A stretch of DNA of 64,000 bases, from assembly GCF_014203735.1 (NCBI RefSeq), contig NZ_JACHJQ010000002.1:248001-312000 (forward strand), in the 5' to 3' direction. The DNA comes from Actinophytocola algeriensis. GTDB taxonomy: Bacteria; Actinomycetota; Actinomycetes; Mycobacteriales; Pseudonocardiaceae. Below are positions 2,743 through 15,084 of the stretch, piece by piece; positions within the stretch are counted from its first letter, which is position 1; each line of letters opens with the position of its first letter. The notes beneath the pieces were generated by a model, which saw only the letters and a list, made by a program, of their open reading frames with translations, was not told the DNA's origin and ran no database searches. The translations under genes were made by a program, and so were the position numbers.

Positions 2743-4278
2743 TCAGTCGTTGATGCTGGCTAGGTACTCGTAGCAGCTGGGGAGCGCGGCGACGAGCCGG
2801 CGGCCCTCCTCCTTGACACGCGCGAACTCCGCGTGTGCCCGGGCGGGATCCATGTGCCGCAGTGCGGGCCGCGCCCCTGGCGGCACCACGCCGAGCCCGA
2901 GGTTCATCGTGTTCCACGAGTACGTCTCGAACCCGTGGAAGTACGGGTAGACGGTCTGTTCGTCGAGCAGGTGCGACGTGGCCAGCTCGATCCGCTCCGC
3001 CAGGGCGTCCGGCATGGTGCGGATCTTCGCTTCCTTCCAGTACGGGGTGTCCTCGCGCTGCGCGGACTTGTAGTGCAGGACCAGGAACTCCTTGACGCCG
3101 TCGACCATGTGCGCCATGCGGTTGTTGTAGTCCTGCCGCAGCCGCGGCTCCCAGTTCTCGTCGGGGAAGTGCTTGACCAGCTGCTCGATCGCGTTCTGGA
3201 TGAAGAAGATCCCGGTCGACTCCAGCGGTTCGACGAACGCCGCCGACAACCCGATCGCGACGCAGTTGCCGATCCACGTCTCCTTGTTGCGCCCGATCCG
3301 CATCCGGATGTGGTTGGCCTCGAGGTCGTCCCGGTCCGGCGCGATCGCCGCCCGCAGCTCCCGCTCGGCCTCCTCGGGGGTGGCGAACGCGTCTGAGTAC
3401 ACGTACCCGTTGCCGTTGCGGCGGAACAGCGGGATCGTCCACATCCACCCGGCGCTCATGGCGGTGGCGGTCGTGTACGGGCTCATCTCGGTCGCGTCCT
3501 CGCGCGGCACCCGCAACGCGACGGCCCGGTTGTTGGGCAGCACGTCGGCGAAGGACTGGAACTCCCCGCCCATGGCCTGGTTGATCAGCAGGCCGCGGAA
3601 CCCGGTGCAGTCGATGAACAGGTCACCGGTGAGGTCGCCGTGCTCCGCGGTGCGGACGTGGGTGATCCAGCCCTTCTCGTCCTGCGCGACGGCTTCCACG
3701 TCGGCGCGGACGTGCTTCACGCCGCGGGCCGTGCCGTACTCGGAGAGGTAACGGGCGACCTCGTCGGCGTCGAAGTGGTACGCGTACGGGAACTGCGAAC
3801 GCTGCTCGGCGAGCGTGGACCGCCCGAGCGAGCCGTCCAGTTCCGCGGCGAACAGCCCGCCGTCGAGCATGCGGGGCGCGCGTTTGGCCTCGCACAACGC
3901 GTGGGTGAGGTAGCAGGCCTGGTCGAACGGCTCTGCCCGGTCCCCGGCGAGCCACCAGTCGGCGAGGCTGAAGCCGTCCACGGTGCGTAACCGTTCGAAC
4001 GGGTGGTAGAAGTACGACCCCGGAGTGCTCCAGTTCTCGAACCGGATACCGAGTTTGTACCCGCCAGCACAGCGCGGAAGCCATTCCCGCTCGTCGAGGC
4101 CGAGGTAGTCGAAGAAGTGTCGCAGGGTGCTGAACGTCGCCTCGCCGACCCCGATGCGGGACACCCGCACCGACTCGATCAAGGTCACGTCGATTCGGTC
4201 CGCGAAGGCGGCTTTGAGGTAGCTGGCCGTCATCCACCCGGCCGTACCTCCGCCGACGATCACAACGGATCGGATCAT
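2743..4278 (-). CDS. pyrH-like: FAD-dependent tryptophan halogenase, PyrH-like (probable 5-halogenase)
   Basis: A 511-residue flavin-dependent halogenase, the same length as PyrH of pyrroindomycin biosynthesis and very similar as I recall that sequence. Visible elements are the GGGTAG FAD motif (residues 9-14), the catalytic Lys75 in GGYKLGIRF, the halogenase signature GWMWTIP (277-283), and Glu353-Ser354 in PLESTG. It oxidises chloride with FADH2 and O2, passing HOCl via Lys75 to tryptophan. Resemblance to PyrH suggests 5-chlorotryptophan; the regiochemistry is inference. The start has GAGGAG six to seven bases upstream. First gene of a three-gene operon, divergent from the AmCP operon. Confidence 0.95.
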
Positions 4279-4596
4279 GCAGGGCTCTCCTCGCCATCAA
4301 GTGCACACTGTGTAGTCATTGAACAACGCTCCGAGGATATCCAGGGTGTAAATAGGCTGTTTGTCGTACGGCGCGTAGCGATCGGATTACCGCACGTATC
4401 CTGACCAGCACTTCCGGCGGGCACAATGATCGTTTTCACGCGGCGCGGTATACGTCCACACCGAACATCCGGAACGAGAGCCGGCGCCACCGGCAAATCC
4501 GGATCGACCATCCGCGGCCCGGCAACCCACCACTCGCACCACGCTCGAATCCCGAGATCGTCAGGAACCCTCCCGCACGAGTGGAGGGAAACCGCA
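4279..4596. promoter_or_regulatory. divergent control region between halogenase and AmCP operons
   Basis: About 320 bp with no convincing gene, holding the outward promoters of both arms. An imperfect inverted repeat TGCACA-c-TGTGTA lies at 4302-4314, 24 bp upstream of the halogenase start, and could be an operator. The stretch 4316-4365 is clearly less GC-rich than its surroundings, as expected for a promoter. I could not assign -35/-10 boxes with confidence. Confidence 0.5.
4568..4588 (+). promoter_or_regulatory. hairpin that can sequester the micro-ORF ribosome binding site
   Basis: CCCTCC at 4568-4573 is the exact complement of the Shine-Dalgarno sequence GGAGGG at 4583-4588, separated by 9 nt. 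This makes a six-pair all-GC stem. In the transcript it would mask the ribosome binding site of the 11-codon frame that starts at 4597. The pairing is seen in the sequence; a regulatory role is inference. Confidence 0.4.
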
Positions 4597-12906: not shown

Positions 12907-14008
12907 GCGCGCCAAGGAGGATGAACGACGTCCGGCCGGTCAGCTCGTACAGCACCACGCCCGCCACCGGCCCCAGCACGTTGCCCACATCCGACACGAG
13001 ACCGAACAACCCGAACGCCGTCCCCTGGCTGTCGGCGGCGGACTTCAGCTCCACGATCCCCCGCCGGGCCGTGAGGAACAGGATCGCGTAGCCGACCATC
13101 ACCACCACGAACGCCGCCGCGACCGGGACCACCGACGCGCTCACCGCCATCGCCGCCAGGCCGACGCCGAGGATGGCGAGCCCGGTACCGATCATCGGCA
13201 CCAGCCCGAACCGTTCGGTGTAGCGCCCCAGCGCCCACATGCTGACCGCCGACGTCGCGAGGCCCACCACGAACACCACCGAGATCGCACCGCGGGCCGA
13301 GCCTTCCGCCGCACCGCTCAGGTACAGCGGCAGCAGTGGCTCGAGCGAGGTGTACACGAGGTGCGTGAACAGGTCCAGCACCCCCAGCACCAGCACCCAC
13401 GCCCACCACCGGTTCCGGCCGCCGGCGTCGGCGGGCGCGGCCGGTTCCACGACCGTGTCCGGGATCGCGTACAGCAGCCCGAAGGCGGTCAGTGACGTCA
13501 GCACCGCGCCCGCGACGAACAACGCCGCCAACCCGAACGGCGCCGCCACTCCCGCGACCAGCGGTCCCAGCAGGAAACCCGCCACCGCGGCGGAGCCGAA
13601 GTTGCCCATCATGCGGCCCGCGGCGATGTCGTACCGCTTGCACAGCGCCGACATCCCCGCGTAGAGGGCCGGCGTCACGAGGCCTTCGCCGATGCCCCAC
13701 ACGAACCGGCCGACGAGCAGGGTCACCGCGTCGTCCGCGAACGCCGTCAGCACGATGCCGGCCGCGGCGATGTTGAGTGCCACGCACGCCACCGCGCGCG
13801 GGCGCCACCGGTCCACCCACCAGCCGCCGAGCGGCTGGAACAGCGCCTTCGCCGCGGCGAACAGCGCGAACACCAGCGCGATGGTCCCCGGCCCCGCGCC
13901 GACCCGCTCCTCGAGGTCGGGCACGAACGGGATCAGCACCGTGTAGGACGCGTTGACGCTGATGACCGCCACCAGCAACAGCAGCGCCCTGCGCCGGCCG
14001 GCGCCCAT
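12758..14008 (-). CDS. MFS transporter, drug-export type
   Basis: 416 residues with about 12 transmembrane helices and the cytoplasmic signature GGWWVDRWRPR after helix 2. The ATG at 14008 overlaps by one base the TGA of the upstream GNAT gene (TGATG), so the two are translationally coupled. It ends inside the EamA gene on the other strand. It most likely exports the cluster product and gives self-resistance; the substrate is unknown. Confidence 0.9.
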   Translation of the reverse strand: MGAGRRRALLLLVAVISVNASYTVLIPFVPDLEERVGAGPGTIALVFALFAAAKALFQPLGGWWVDRWRPRAVACVALNIAAAGIVLTAFADDAVTLLVGRFVWGIGEGLVTPALYAGMSALCKRYDIAAGRMMGNFGSAAVAGFLLGPLVAGVAAPFGLAALFVAGAVLTSLTAFGLLYAIPDTVVEPAAPADAGGRNRWWAWVLVLGVLDLFTHLVYTSLEPLLPLYLSGAAEGSARGAISVVFVVGLATSAVSMWALGRYTERFGLVPMIGTGLAILGVGLAAMAVSASVVPVAAAFVVVMVGYAILFLTARRGIVELKSAADSQGTAFGLFGLVSDVGNVLGPVAGVVLYELTGRTSFILLGALSGLLVVVLASQAPRWRRHFPIAAATAAAPPARSGHRAESSASEVRPAA

Positions 14009-15084
14009 CACGCGCCCTCGATGTAGGCGTGCAGCACCGCGTGCATGCCGCGCAGGGCCAACGCCAGTTCCGGTCCCCCGGACGGCGCGTACACCAGCGC
14101 CCACAGCTCGGTGGGGGCGAGACCGTGCCGTTCCTTGAACCGGTAGTTGTCGCGGCCCCACTCGATGCGCCGCATGCCGTTCTCGTACGCCCACTGCGTC
14201 GACCGGTACATCAGCGCGATGTACGTGCTGTACTCGCGGAGGCTCTTGTAGTCCACGCCACCGCACATGAACGTGACCTCGTCGCCACGGCGGAACCCGA
14301 AGAACACGCCGACCAGCCGGTCGCCGACCGTCGCCGCCGACAGCAGTGCGCCCGGGATGTCGAGCATGCCGTGCAGCGCCGCCTCGTCGAACAGCGCGGG
14401 CCAGGAGTTCTTGTCGCTCGTGTCGACGGTCAGCGGGAACGCGGCGGGCACGAGCGCGTGCGCCTCGTCGCCTTCGACCATCCGCACCCGCAGGCCGCGC
14501 TCCTCGCCGCGCCGCAGCCGCCGCTCGACGTCGCGGCGGATCTTGTTGTCGATGCGGTACATGTGGTCGGTGAACGTGCCGTCGACGTCGATCGCGTACG
14601 TCCGTTCCAAGTGGACCGTGCCGGTGGGCGGGCCGGCCGCGGCCAGCCAGCTGTCGACGCCCTCGGTCGTCACGTTCGGCACGACGAGCACGTCGGCGGC
14701 GCCGCCGTGGATCCAGTCCATCGCGGTCGCGTACGCGCCCTGGACCAGCGGCGCGGCGATCGGGCCGCGCTTGCCGTACATCGAGTACGGCGAGCCCGCG
14801 AAGACGATCGGGTTGCCGAACCGGCCGGAGAGTTCGCACTGCAGCTCGTAGCCGTGCCAGAACGGGGACATCGTGGTCTCGTACAGCGGCAGCACGTCAG
14901 TGGCGGCACCGCTGCCCGCGCGCACGTACGCGTGCCGGGTGCGCTGCTCGATGCCGATCCGCTCCCACCCGCGCAGCCAGGCCGCCGAGTCGTACAGGCA
15001 ACTGGCCGCCACCTCGTCGGGCACCCGGTCGGACACCGTCCAGTCGTACGCCGTATCGATCCGTCCCGTGTCGGTGACCGTCAC
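14008..15084 (-). CDS. BioF2/FemAB-like GNAT-fold acyl- or aminoacyltransferase
   Basis: 358 residues. The C-terminal half (about 150-320) resembles Acetyltransf_6/FemAB-like proteins: a basic NKIRRDVERRLRRGEERG segment, LVGVFFGFRRGDEVTFMCGG, and then YIALMYRSTQWAYENGMRRIEWG followed by NYRFKERHG. Relatives transfer acyl groups, or aminoacyl groups from charged tRNA, onto amines. GTG 15084 was chosen because GGGGG lies just upstream; an ATG at 15114 has no such site. Coupled to an MFS exporter in a cluster without an NRPS, it is the best candidate for an amide-forming step. That is inference. Confidence 0.75.
   Translation of the reverse strand: MTVTDTGRIDTAYDWTVSDRVPDEVAASCLYDSAAWLRGWERIGIEQRTRHAYVRAGSGAATDVLPLYETTMSPFWHGYELQCELSGRFGNPIVFAGSPYSMYGKRGPIAAPLVQGAYATAMDWIHGGAADVLVVPNVTTEGVDSWLAAAGPPTGTVHLERTYAIDVDGTFTDHMYRIDNKIRRDVERRLRRGEERGLRVRMVEGDEAHALVPAAFPLTVDTSDKNSWPALFDEAALHGMLDIPGALLSAATVGDRLVGVFFGFRRGDEVTFMCGGVDYKSLREYSTYIALMYRSTQWAYENGMRRIEWGRDNYRFKERHGLAPTELWALVYAPSGGPELALALRGMHAVLHAYIEGA

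Follow-up and report, generated by a model that had tools for sequence, protein, structure and literature searches.

In the portions of the reports available to us, the pathways to vazabitide A, s56-p1 and azinomycin-type compounds share a glutamate-derived diamino-dihydroxyheptanoate logic, carried out by a kinase, a reductase, a transketolase and an aminotransferase (PMC9303977, PMC9570651). For vazabitide and s56-p1 the same portions also describe a LysW-type amino-group carrier protein (AmCP). Carrier peptides are likewise the site at which 3-thia-amino acids are made, according to the accessible sections of two papers (PMC9303977, PMC9016710). Vazabitide A and s56-p1 are presented, in what these sources offer, as nonribosomal peptide products. 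A related locus of Actinophytocola algeriensis, on contig C2 of the 9.7-Mb genome and within a 64-kb stretch analysed as a whole (hereafter the window), differs in that no nonribosomal peptide synthetase (NRPS) is found nearby and that a gene for a FemX-like protein is the conserved partner of the AmCP operon. With moderate confidence, we consider the AmCP operon, the FemX-like gene and a gene for an MFS protein to form a conserved, NRPS-free unit of ten genes. In this unit, an amino acid of the 2,6-diamino-5,7-dihydroxyheptanoate (DADH) type would be built on the carrier, aminoacylated from a tRNA and exported, and a halogenase cassette next to it would be a separate entity.

The AmCP operon lies on the plus strand (4653-12906) and begins with a DegT-family aminotransferase (4653-6023; Pfam DegT, 1.6e-86). 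It continues with a split transketolase, of which the N-terminal half (6020-6868; Transketolase_N, 3.2e-42) carries the GDG...N motif for binding thiamine diphosphate and the C-terminal half (6909-7880, alternative start at 6876) matches Transket_pyr (1.4e-32) and Transketolase_C (1.2e-27). The LysW-like AmCP follows (7896-8075; Zn_ribbon_LysW, 4.2e-11, above the cut-off), with four cysteines and the C-terminus EEDFGE, that is, a terminal Glu. Downstream are a LysX-like ATP-grasp ligase (8072-8974, its start placed by inference at about 8072; RimK and LysX_preATP_grasp), a LysY/ArgC-like reductase (9097-10119; Semialdhyde_dhC_1, 3.4e-39), a LysZ-like kinase (~10127-10948, start approximate; AA_kinase, 3.8e-36), a LysK-like M20 hydrolase (10932-11972; Peptidase_M20, 1.8e-23) and an EamA transporter (11983-12906; EamA, 4.5e-39). 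The minus strand then encodes the MFS exporter (12758-14008; MFS_1, 5.6e-32) and the FemX-like protein, a FemABX-like GNAT-fold transferase and predicted aminoacyl-tRNA-dependent ligase (14008-15084, with a likely start codon at 15084; Acetyltransf_6, PF13480, 3.3e-16). The MFS gene overlaps a neighbour on each side: its start coincides in part with the stop of the FemX-like gene, and its 3' terminus runs into the convergent EamA gene.

Homologues of LysX, LysZ, LysY and LysK are therefore all present in one operon, with the split transketolase and DegT beside the AmCP. An earlier reading of the window from its letters alone (the sequence-only reading) had described a complete AmCP/DADH-type gene set, and this description holds: every gene it named is present in the orientation given, with a clear family match. 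Among NCBIfam models, LysX passes the cut-off of TIGR02144 (307.3 vs 275.6) and LysY that of the argC model TIGR01850 (335.1 vs 233.6), and LysZ passes NF010659, the [LysW]-aminoadipate kinase model (256.8 vs 223), as well as the acetylglutamate kinase model. LysK scores slightly under the cut-off of NF003367, the [LysW]-lysine hydrolase model (349.7 vs 363), and above that of TIGR01902, and LysW scores under the curated cut-off of TIGR01206 (39.9 vs 53.2).

In the proposed pathway, LysX would attach glutamate by the amino group to the terminal Glu of LysW, after which LysZ would phosphorylate and LysY reduce the side-chain carboxylate to a semialdehyde. The split transketolase would contribute a two-carbon ketol unit, DegT would transaminate the carrier-bound intermediate and LysK would free the DADH-type amino acid (2,6-diamino-5,7-dihydroxyheptanoate or close) from the AmCP. 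The FemX-like enzyme would then move a proteinogenic amino acid, the presumed donor, from its charged tRNA onto an amino group of the DADH-type product, giving a putative dipeptide that the MFS protein would export. No sulfotransferase was seen among the Pfam-scanned window proteins, and so there is no sign of an aziridine step.

The role assigned to the FemX-like protein draws on its predicted fold and on a short motif. Its AlphaFold model (predicted local distance difference test score, pLDDT, 88.2; predicted template-modelling score, pTM, 0.87) retrieved in Foldseek first Sbb17 and Sba18, aminoacyl-tRNA-dependent peptide synthases whose structures were solved with streptothrisamine, and then FemX and MprF. 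The template-modelling scores by query (TMq) and target (TMt) were 0.62 and 0.75 for Sbb17 and 0.59 and 0.63 for FemX, consistent with a double-GNAT, FemX-like fold, and ranks 1-22 are all aminoacyl-tRNA users or entries named as relatives, at 9-15% identity. Compared by spacing alone, without superposition, the residues N313-x-x-F316-K317 correspond to Asn325, Phe328 and Lys329 of DhpH-C, for which the available part of one paper reports support from mutagenesis (PMC12945691). The motif N-x-x-F-K is present in the window protein and in 13 of 14 aligned homologues, with N-x-x-Y-K in the remaining one (L140). From its predicted structure, then, the FemX-like protein is probably an aminoacyl-tRNA-dependent ligase. 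It was already the only amide-forming candidate recognised in the sequence-only reading, a view that fold, motif and co-occurrence now strengthen.

Relatives of the operon were collected in three ways. A LysW search of 390 Pseudonocardiaceae genomes matched 28 places in 26 genomes, five of them 75-100% identical and the other 23 at 38-55%. A DegT-based scan of one genome per species (84,980 species), using two exact peptide patterns that more distant clade members escape, returned eight close loci, three of which were already among the family genomes. Finally, when 392 Streptomyces genomes were searched for the FemX-like gene, one further genome of the AmCP clade came to light, Streptomyces G728 (L166). 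This clade, named here for the LysW tail EEDFGE, comprises 11 genomes including the window: Actinophytocola oryzae (L018/L095, the same locus), G075 (L046), Lentzea sp. NBRC 105346 (L045/L097), Umezawaea tangerina (L047/L096), two Microbispora (L098, L100), Streptomyces sp. TP-A0356 (L099), Streptomyces sp. SPB074 (L101), Streptomyces sennicomposti (L102) and G728. The tail is EEDFGE in all eleven and EDWGE in four others read (L053, L056, L060, L062), and DegT is 82-92% identical across the ten other clade genomes, with four related loci spanning 83-92%. An EamA gene adjoins LysK also in Lentzea and Umezawaea; the remaining eight related loci showed none in the stretch covered, about 20 kb each (L166 extends only 1.5 kb beyond LysK). 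Besides its close AmCP set, A. oryzae has a second, distant one (L019, G002:C16; LysW 45-46%).

Six genomes from two genera, Actinophytocola and Streptomyces, hold the ten-gene set without an NRPS in about 20 kb. No NRPS homology was found in the compact loci L018/L095, L099, L101, L102 and L166 (about 20 kb each), nor in the window or 40 kb upstream of it, when 12 NRPS stretches of the A. algeriensis genome served as queries (E<=1e-10). Condensation domains gave 40 matches in the genome, a number of which are only pieces; on the contig, the nearest one listed begins at position 1,201,005, roughly 890 kb beyond the window end, and the nearest PP-binding domain at 1,192,497, roughly 880 kb beyond. 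The contig domain listing and the query search together rule out a concealed NRPS near the window, and the sequence-only reading was correct that the locus lacks one locally. Its wider statement that known clusters of this type use NRPSs fits vazabitide A and s56-p1, in the part of the source available (PMC9303977), but does not extend to five other EEDFGE-clade genomes, which have no NRPS in the stretch covered. A tree built from six concatenated proteins joins the window and A. oryzae to Microbispora and places the Streptomyces loci in a group of their own. The compact loci are thus not one group, and the compact form is either ancestral or has arisen more than once.

The FemX-like gene follows the clade closely. 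An orthologue is present in 10 of the 10 clade genomes found via LysW or DegT; G728, having been found via the FemX-like gene itself, is not independent evidence of co-occurrence. At E<=1e-15, none of the 21 family genomes having only other AmCP types gave a FemX-like match, in searches that scored few candidates per genome (five for the FemX-like protein, three for the halogenase) and that divergent copies may escape. The gene stands beside the AmCP operon in six genomes (the window, L095, L099, L101, L102 and L166), lies about 72 and 75 kb from it on the same contig in G384 and G075, and is on another contig in G247. One Microbispora copy (G393, L197) contains an in-frame TGA and may therefore be broken, unless this is a sequencing error. 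Against the seven other aligned clade members, which have 0 to 14 private changes each, the window protein has five, none of them in N-x-x-F-K, and it shows no sign of a changed role.

At each of the 16 loci where the neighbours of the FemX-like gene were examined, the window among them, an MFS homologue lies beside it (12 of 19 family places and four Streptomyces places, with seven distant and two Microbispora places set aside). In five clusters of another genus that have no AmCP (L135-L139), the pair occurs near a gene for a class I lysyl-tRNA synthetase, identified by Pfam in L135 and by 84-87% identity in the other four. Four of these five clusters also encode a pyridoxal 5'-phosphate (PLP)-dependent decarboxylase, a fatty-acid desaturase and a Cys/Met-type PLP enzyme. 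Their product is possibly a lysine- or ornithine-derived dipeptide, with the synthetase as donor supply or as self-resistance. The recurrence of the pair in these AmCP-free clusters suggests a finishing module that can be reused for one unusual amino acid or another. Near the Lentzea FemX-like/MFS pair there are a gene of the tryptophan 2,3-dioxygenase family and a class V aminotransferase gene with a weak kynureninase match.

The halogenase cassette diverges from the AmCP operon on the minus strand. It consists of a PyrH-type tryptophan 5-halogenase of 511 residues (2743-4278; Pfam Trp_halogenase, 2.1e-143), a flavin reductase that is its likely partner (2229-2741; Flavin_Reduct, 1.3e-37) and, as third gene, a Na+/H+ exchanger-type antiporter (886-2232; Na_H_Exchanger, 3.9e-47). 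The best matches of the halogenase in the Protein Data Bank are the PyrH entries 2wet and 2wes (968 and 967 bits over 509 residues); the next 5-halogenase reaches 697 bits, the best 6-halogenase 654 and the best 7-halogenase, PrnA, 391. The earlier description of the enzyme as PyrH-like was therefore accurate, PyrH standing ahead of all entries named 6- or 7-halogenase. Twenty of the 100 other listed places with PyrH-like halogenases were examined, taken from the top. A flavin reductase homologue was found in 17 of them (partial in L152, and beside a second halogenase in L153); halogenase, reductase and antiporter recur in the same order in five (L142, L144, L147, L148, L149; antiporter 56-72% identical), and a further four have an antiporter at 32-35%. 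The cladoniamide and BE-54017 clusters encode the same three functions (ClaH/ClaF/ClaT, AbeH/AbeF/AbeT), as described in the accessible part of the report (PMC3158105), and tryptophan 5-halogenase, flavin reductase and Na+/H+ antiporter are what the window cassette has in common with them and with PyrH. It departs from the cladoniamide-type genes in its surroundings: neither an oxidase nor a chromopyrrolate synthase nor any further enzyme acting on tryptophan was recognised close to the halogenase, with the 40 kb upstream judged by eye. Since the related AmCP loci show no halogenase in the stretches examined and the halogenase set recurs elsewhere, the window is best described as two cassettes side by side, in which halogenase, reductase and antiporter would be a separate 5-chlorotryptophan cassette placed beside the ten-gene unit in this strain.

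Several observations weigh against the ten-gene unit as described. For the FemX-like protein, no solved structure related by sequence was found, Pfam gives only the general GNAT family PF13480, no NCBIfam model matches, acyl-coenzyme A (CoA) GNATs appear from Foldseek rank 23 on, and the motif is matched by spacing. Alternatively, the protein could be a common GNAT using acyl- or acetyl-CoA to N-acylate the diamino acid, perhaps for self-protection, with the MFS protein exporting the acylated amino acid; its assignment to Acetyltransf_6 only and the tandem GNATs with CoA ligands lower in the fold list would suit such a role. The uninterrupted run of aminoacyl-tRNA users and their named relatives down to rank 22, the retained Asn/Phe/Lys spacing of DhpH-C and the lysyl-tRNA synthetase genes near all five homologues in another genus make this distinctly improbable. 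Distribution also speaks against a strict pairing: an AmCP of the EEDFGE clade is missing from 12 of the 17 family genomes that gave a FemX-like match (identity is 54-58% for five of these 12 matches and 26-33% for the others), and the homologues at 54-58% are in genomes without any AmCP match (G064, G070, G073, G077, G183). The FemX-like gene is thus not tied to AmCP as such. Nor is it always an NRPS stand-in, because three Pseudonocardiaceae relatives have both NRPS genes and a FemX-like gene remote from the AmCP operon. In these large NRPS clusters, of Umezawaea tangerina (L047, L122-L125), G075 (L046, L127-L130) and Lentzea (L045, L132-L133), the AmCP operon stands at one end and the FemX-like/MFS pair about 72-75 kb off, or on another contig in Lentzea. 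By the same logic as in these larger clusters, the AmCP arm of the window might supply a precursor to a distant NRPS. The NRPS queries match four of five larger-cluster loci (L045, L046, L047 and L098; L100 gave no match in its 21 kb), and the 40 condensation-domain matches would offer candidates, but with the closest domains some 880-890 kb away and six genomes keeping the ten-gene set free of NRPS homology we hold this to be very improbable. The first substrate is a further weak point of the proposed pathway: the LysZ match is to a [LysW]-aminoadipate kinase model, and the amino acid loaded may be 2-aminoadipate in place of glutamate.

A last alternative abandons the separation of the two cassettes. 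Both arms would then serve a single product, in which 5-chlorotryptophan is amide-linked to a DADH-like amino acid, with the FemX-like enzyme taking chlorotryptophan via tRNA-Trp or with tryptophan chlorinated later. The operons are divergent, and the 374-bp region between them (4279-4652, read directly) is common to both and joins them here; the absence of any other recognised tryptophan-using gene near the halogenase leaves room for a link; no amide-forming enzyme was recognised nearby apart from the FemX-like protein, which has the predicted fold of aminoacyl-tRNA users; and at E<=1e-60 the genome listing contains no second halogenase (three of five candidates scored). The congener G005 adds to this side. 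Three of five congeners have an orthologue (58-62%) of a left-flank gene situated about 6 kb outside the window; near it, G001 and G002 have no other window or left-flank gene except one weak transketolase match. In G005 (L187-L188), 80% orthologues of two window genes, 55434-56891 and 44777-46030, lie at distances of about 13 and 36 kb from it, in changed order. Neither arm is found in the G005 region between these orthologues, and G005 has no LysW match and no listed halogenase. The two arms, absent together from this partly syntenic region, may have arrived jointly or one by one.

Comparison across the clade points the other way. No halogenase homologue was found in the ten related AmCP loci (stretches of about 20 kb; E<=1e-8 or E<=1e-6), so that among the 11 clade genomes only the window has one in the stretch examined, and among the 28 AmCP places of the 390 genomes it is the single one for which a halogenase is listed less than 100 kb away on its contig, with the caveat that broken contigs could hide others. 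Whole-genome searches covered nine other clade genomes, all but G728. Six have no match (five of the six in one search at E<=1e-40, and G075 at E<=1e-60); the copies in A. oryzae (only one, 44%), G247 (59-61%) and G384 (42%) are on other contigs. AmCP and halogenase are both present in 14 family genomes, compared with 5.6 expected (hypergeometric P 2e-4); because genome size and secondary-metabolism richness are uncontrolled, this excess is not counted as support, and outside the window the two either sit on separate contigs or are 122 kb or more from each other. The FemX-like protein, with its five private changes outside the motif, likewise bears no mark of an altered role. Tryptophanyl-tRNA synthetase genes are ordinary in number, two above the cut-off as in four of five congeners, so that no dedicated extra copy is seen, and both are off the window's contig. 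The sequence-only reading had treated the arms as one pathway and had proposed searching AmCP clusters for neighbouring PyrH homologues; in the stretches examined the arms do not co-occur in relatives, an outcome that this reading had itself named as refuting it, and the halogenase is rejected as a member of the conserved cluster. A joint product is therefore unlikely overall. Its most specific form, a functional fusion in this strain in which 5-chlorotryptophan charged on tRNA-Trp is transferred by the FemX-like enzyme to the DADH-type amino acid to give an NRPS-free chlorinated dipeptide, appears quite unlikely; the chlorotryptophan-DADH amide of the sequence-only reading can be imagined for this strain but finds no comparative support.

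Other features of the locus deserve mention. Between the two operons, an open reading frame of 11 codons (4598-4633, MRVRIPTFDWT) has a good ribosome-binding site and stops about 20 bases ahead of the DegT start; as a shared regulator leader it was rejected, having no counterpart upstream of DegT in nine related loci. Upstream of DegT in L096, L097, L098, L100 and L046, boxes resembling ATACCGC(G/T)-CGAGAG are repeated, with a SARP-like regulator nearby. Seen by eye in the sequence, they are candidate binding sites. The interval between LysX and LysY (8977-9096) contains three copies of the short repeat GGAGCTTGCGAGGGGGC[A/G]GCGAG, with at most two mismatches, and its exact core was found in no other locus among those compared (L015 is the same place). 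The related loci contain no match to a second GNAT gene (15340-15789) or to a regulator gene at 15793, and neither is counted in the set. Further into the window, a 1487-residue protein (34149-38612) combines a Ser/Thr kinase, nSTAND1 and WD40 repeats in a signalling-type architecture.

If the ten-gene unit works as proposed, AmCP pathways would gain a second finishing route, in which an amino acid is taken from the translation machinery and no NRPS is needed. Such a compact system could be expressed whole, and a FemX-like gene together with a LysW ending in EEDFGE could serve as a marker for small products of the dipeptide type that may escape genome mining centred on NRPSs. The tempting link to chlorotryptophan is at the same time corrected as unsupported. 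In the open PubMed Central (PMC) literature, no pairing of an AmCP with aminoacyl-tRNA-dependent ligation or with a halogenase was found, a weak test given that subscription papers fall mostly outside it; the accessible part of PMC8305020 concerns haloarchaeal annotation and holds no AmCP pairing of this kind. Similarity of the antiSMASH type to 'vazabitide A' or 's56-p1' is mentioned, in the parts available, for Lentzea species and S. sennicomposti GMY01 (PMC9120177, PMC10458361), which does not establish that the same locus is meant. As far as the open literature goes, the ten-gene set appears to be a new variant of AmCP-based biosynthesis. Its FemX-like protein shares a predicted fold with Sba18/Sbb17 and FemX and the N-x-x-F-K spacing with DhpH-C, and it differs from Sba18/Sbb17 and FemX in belonging to PF13480, in an identity of 9-15% and in having an AmCP-based pathway as its partner.

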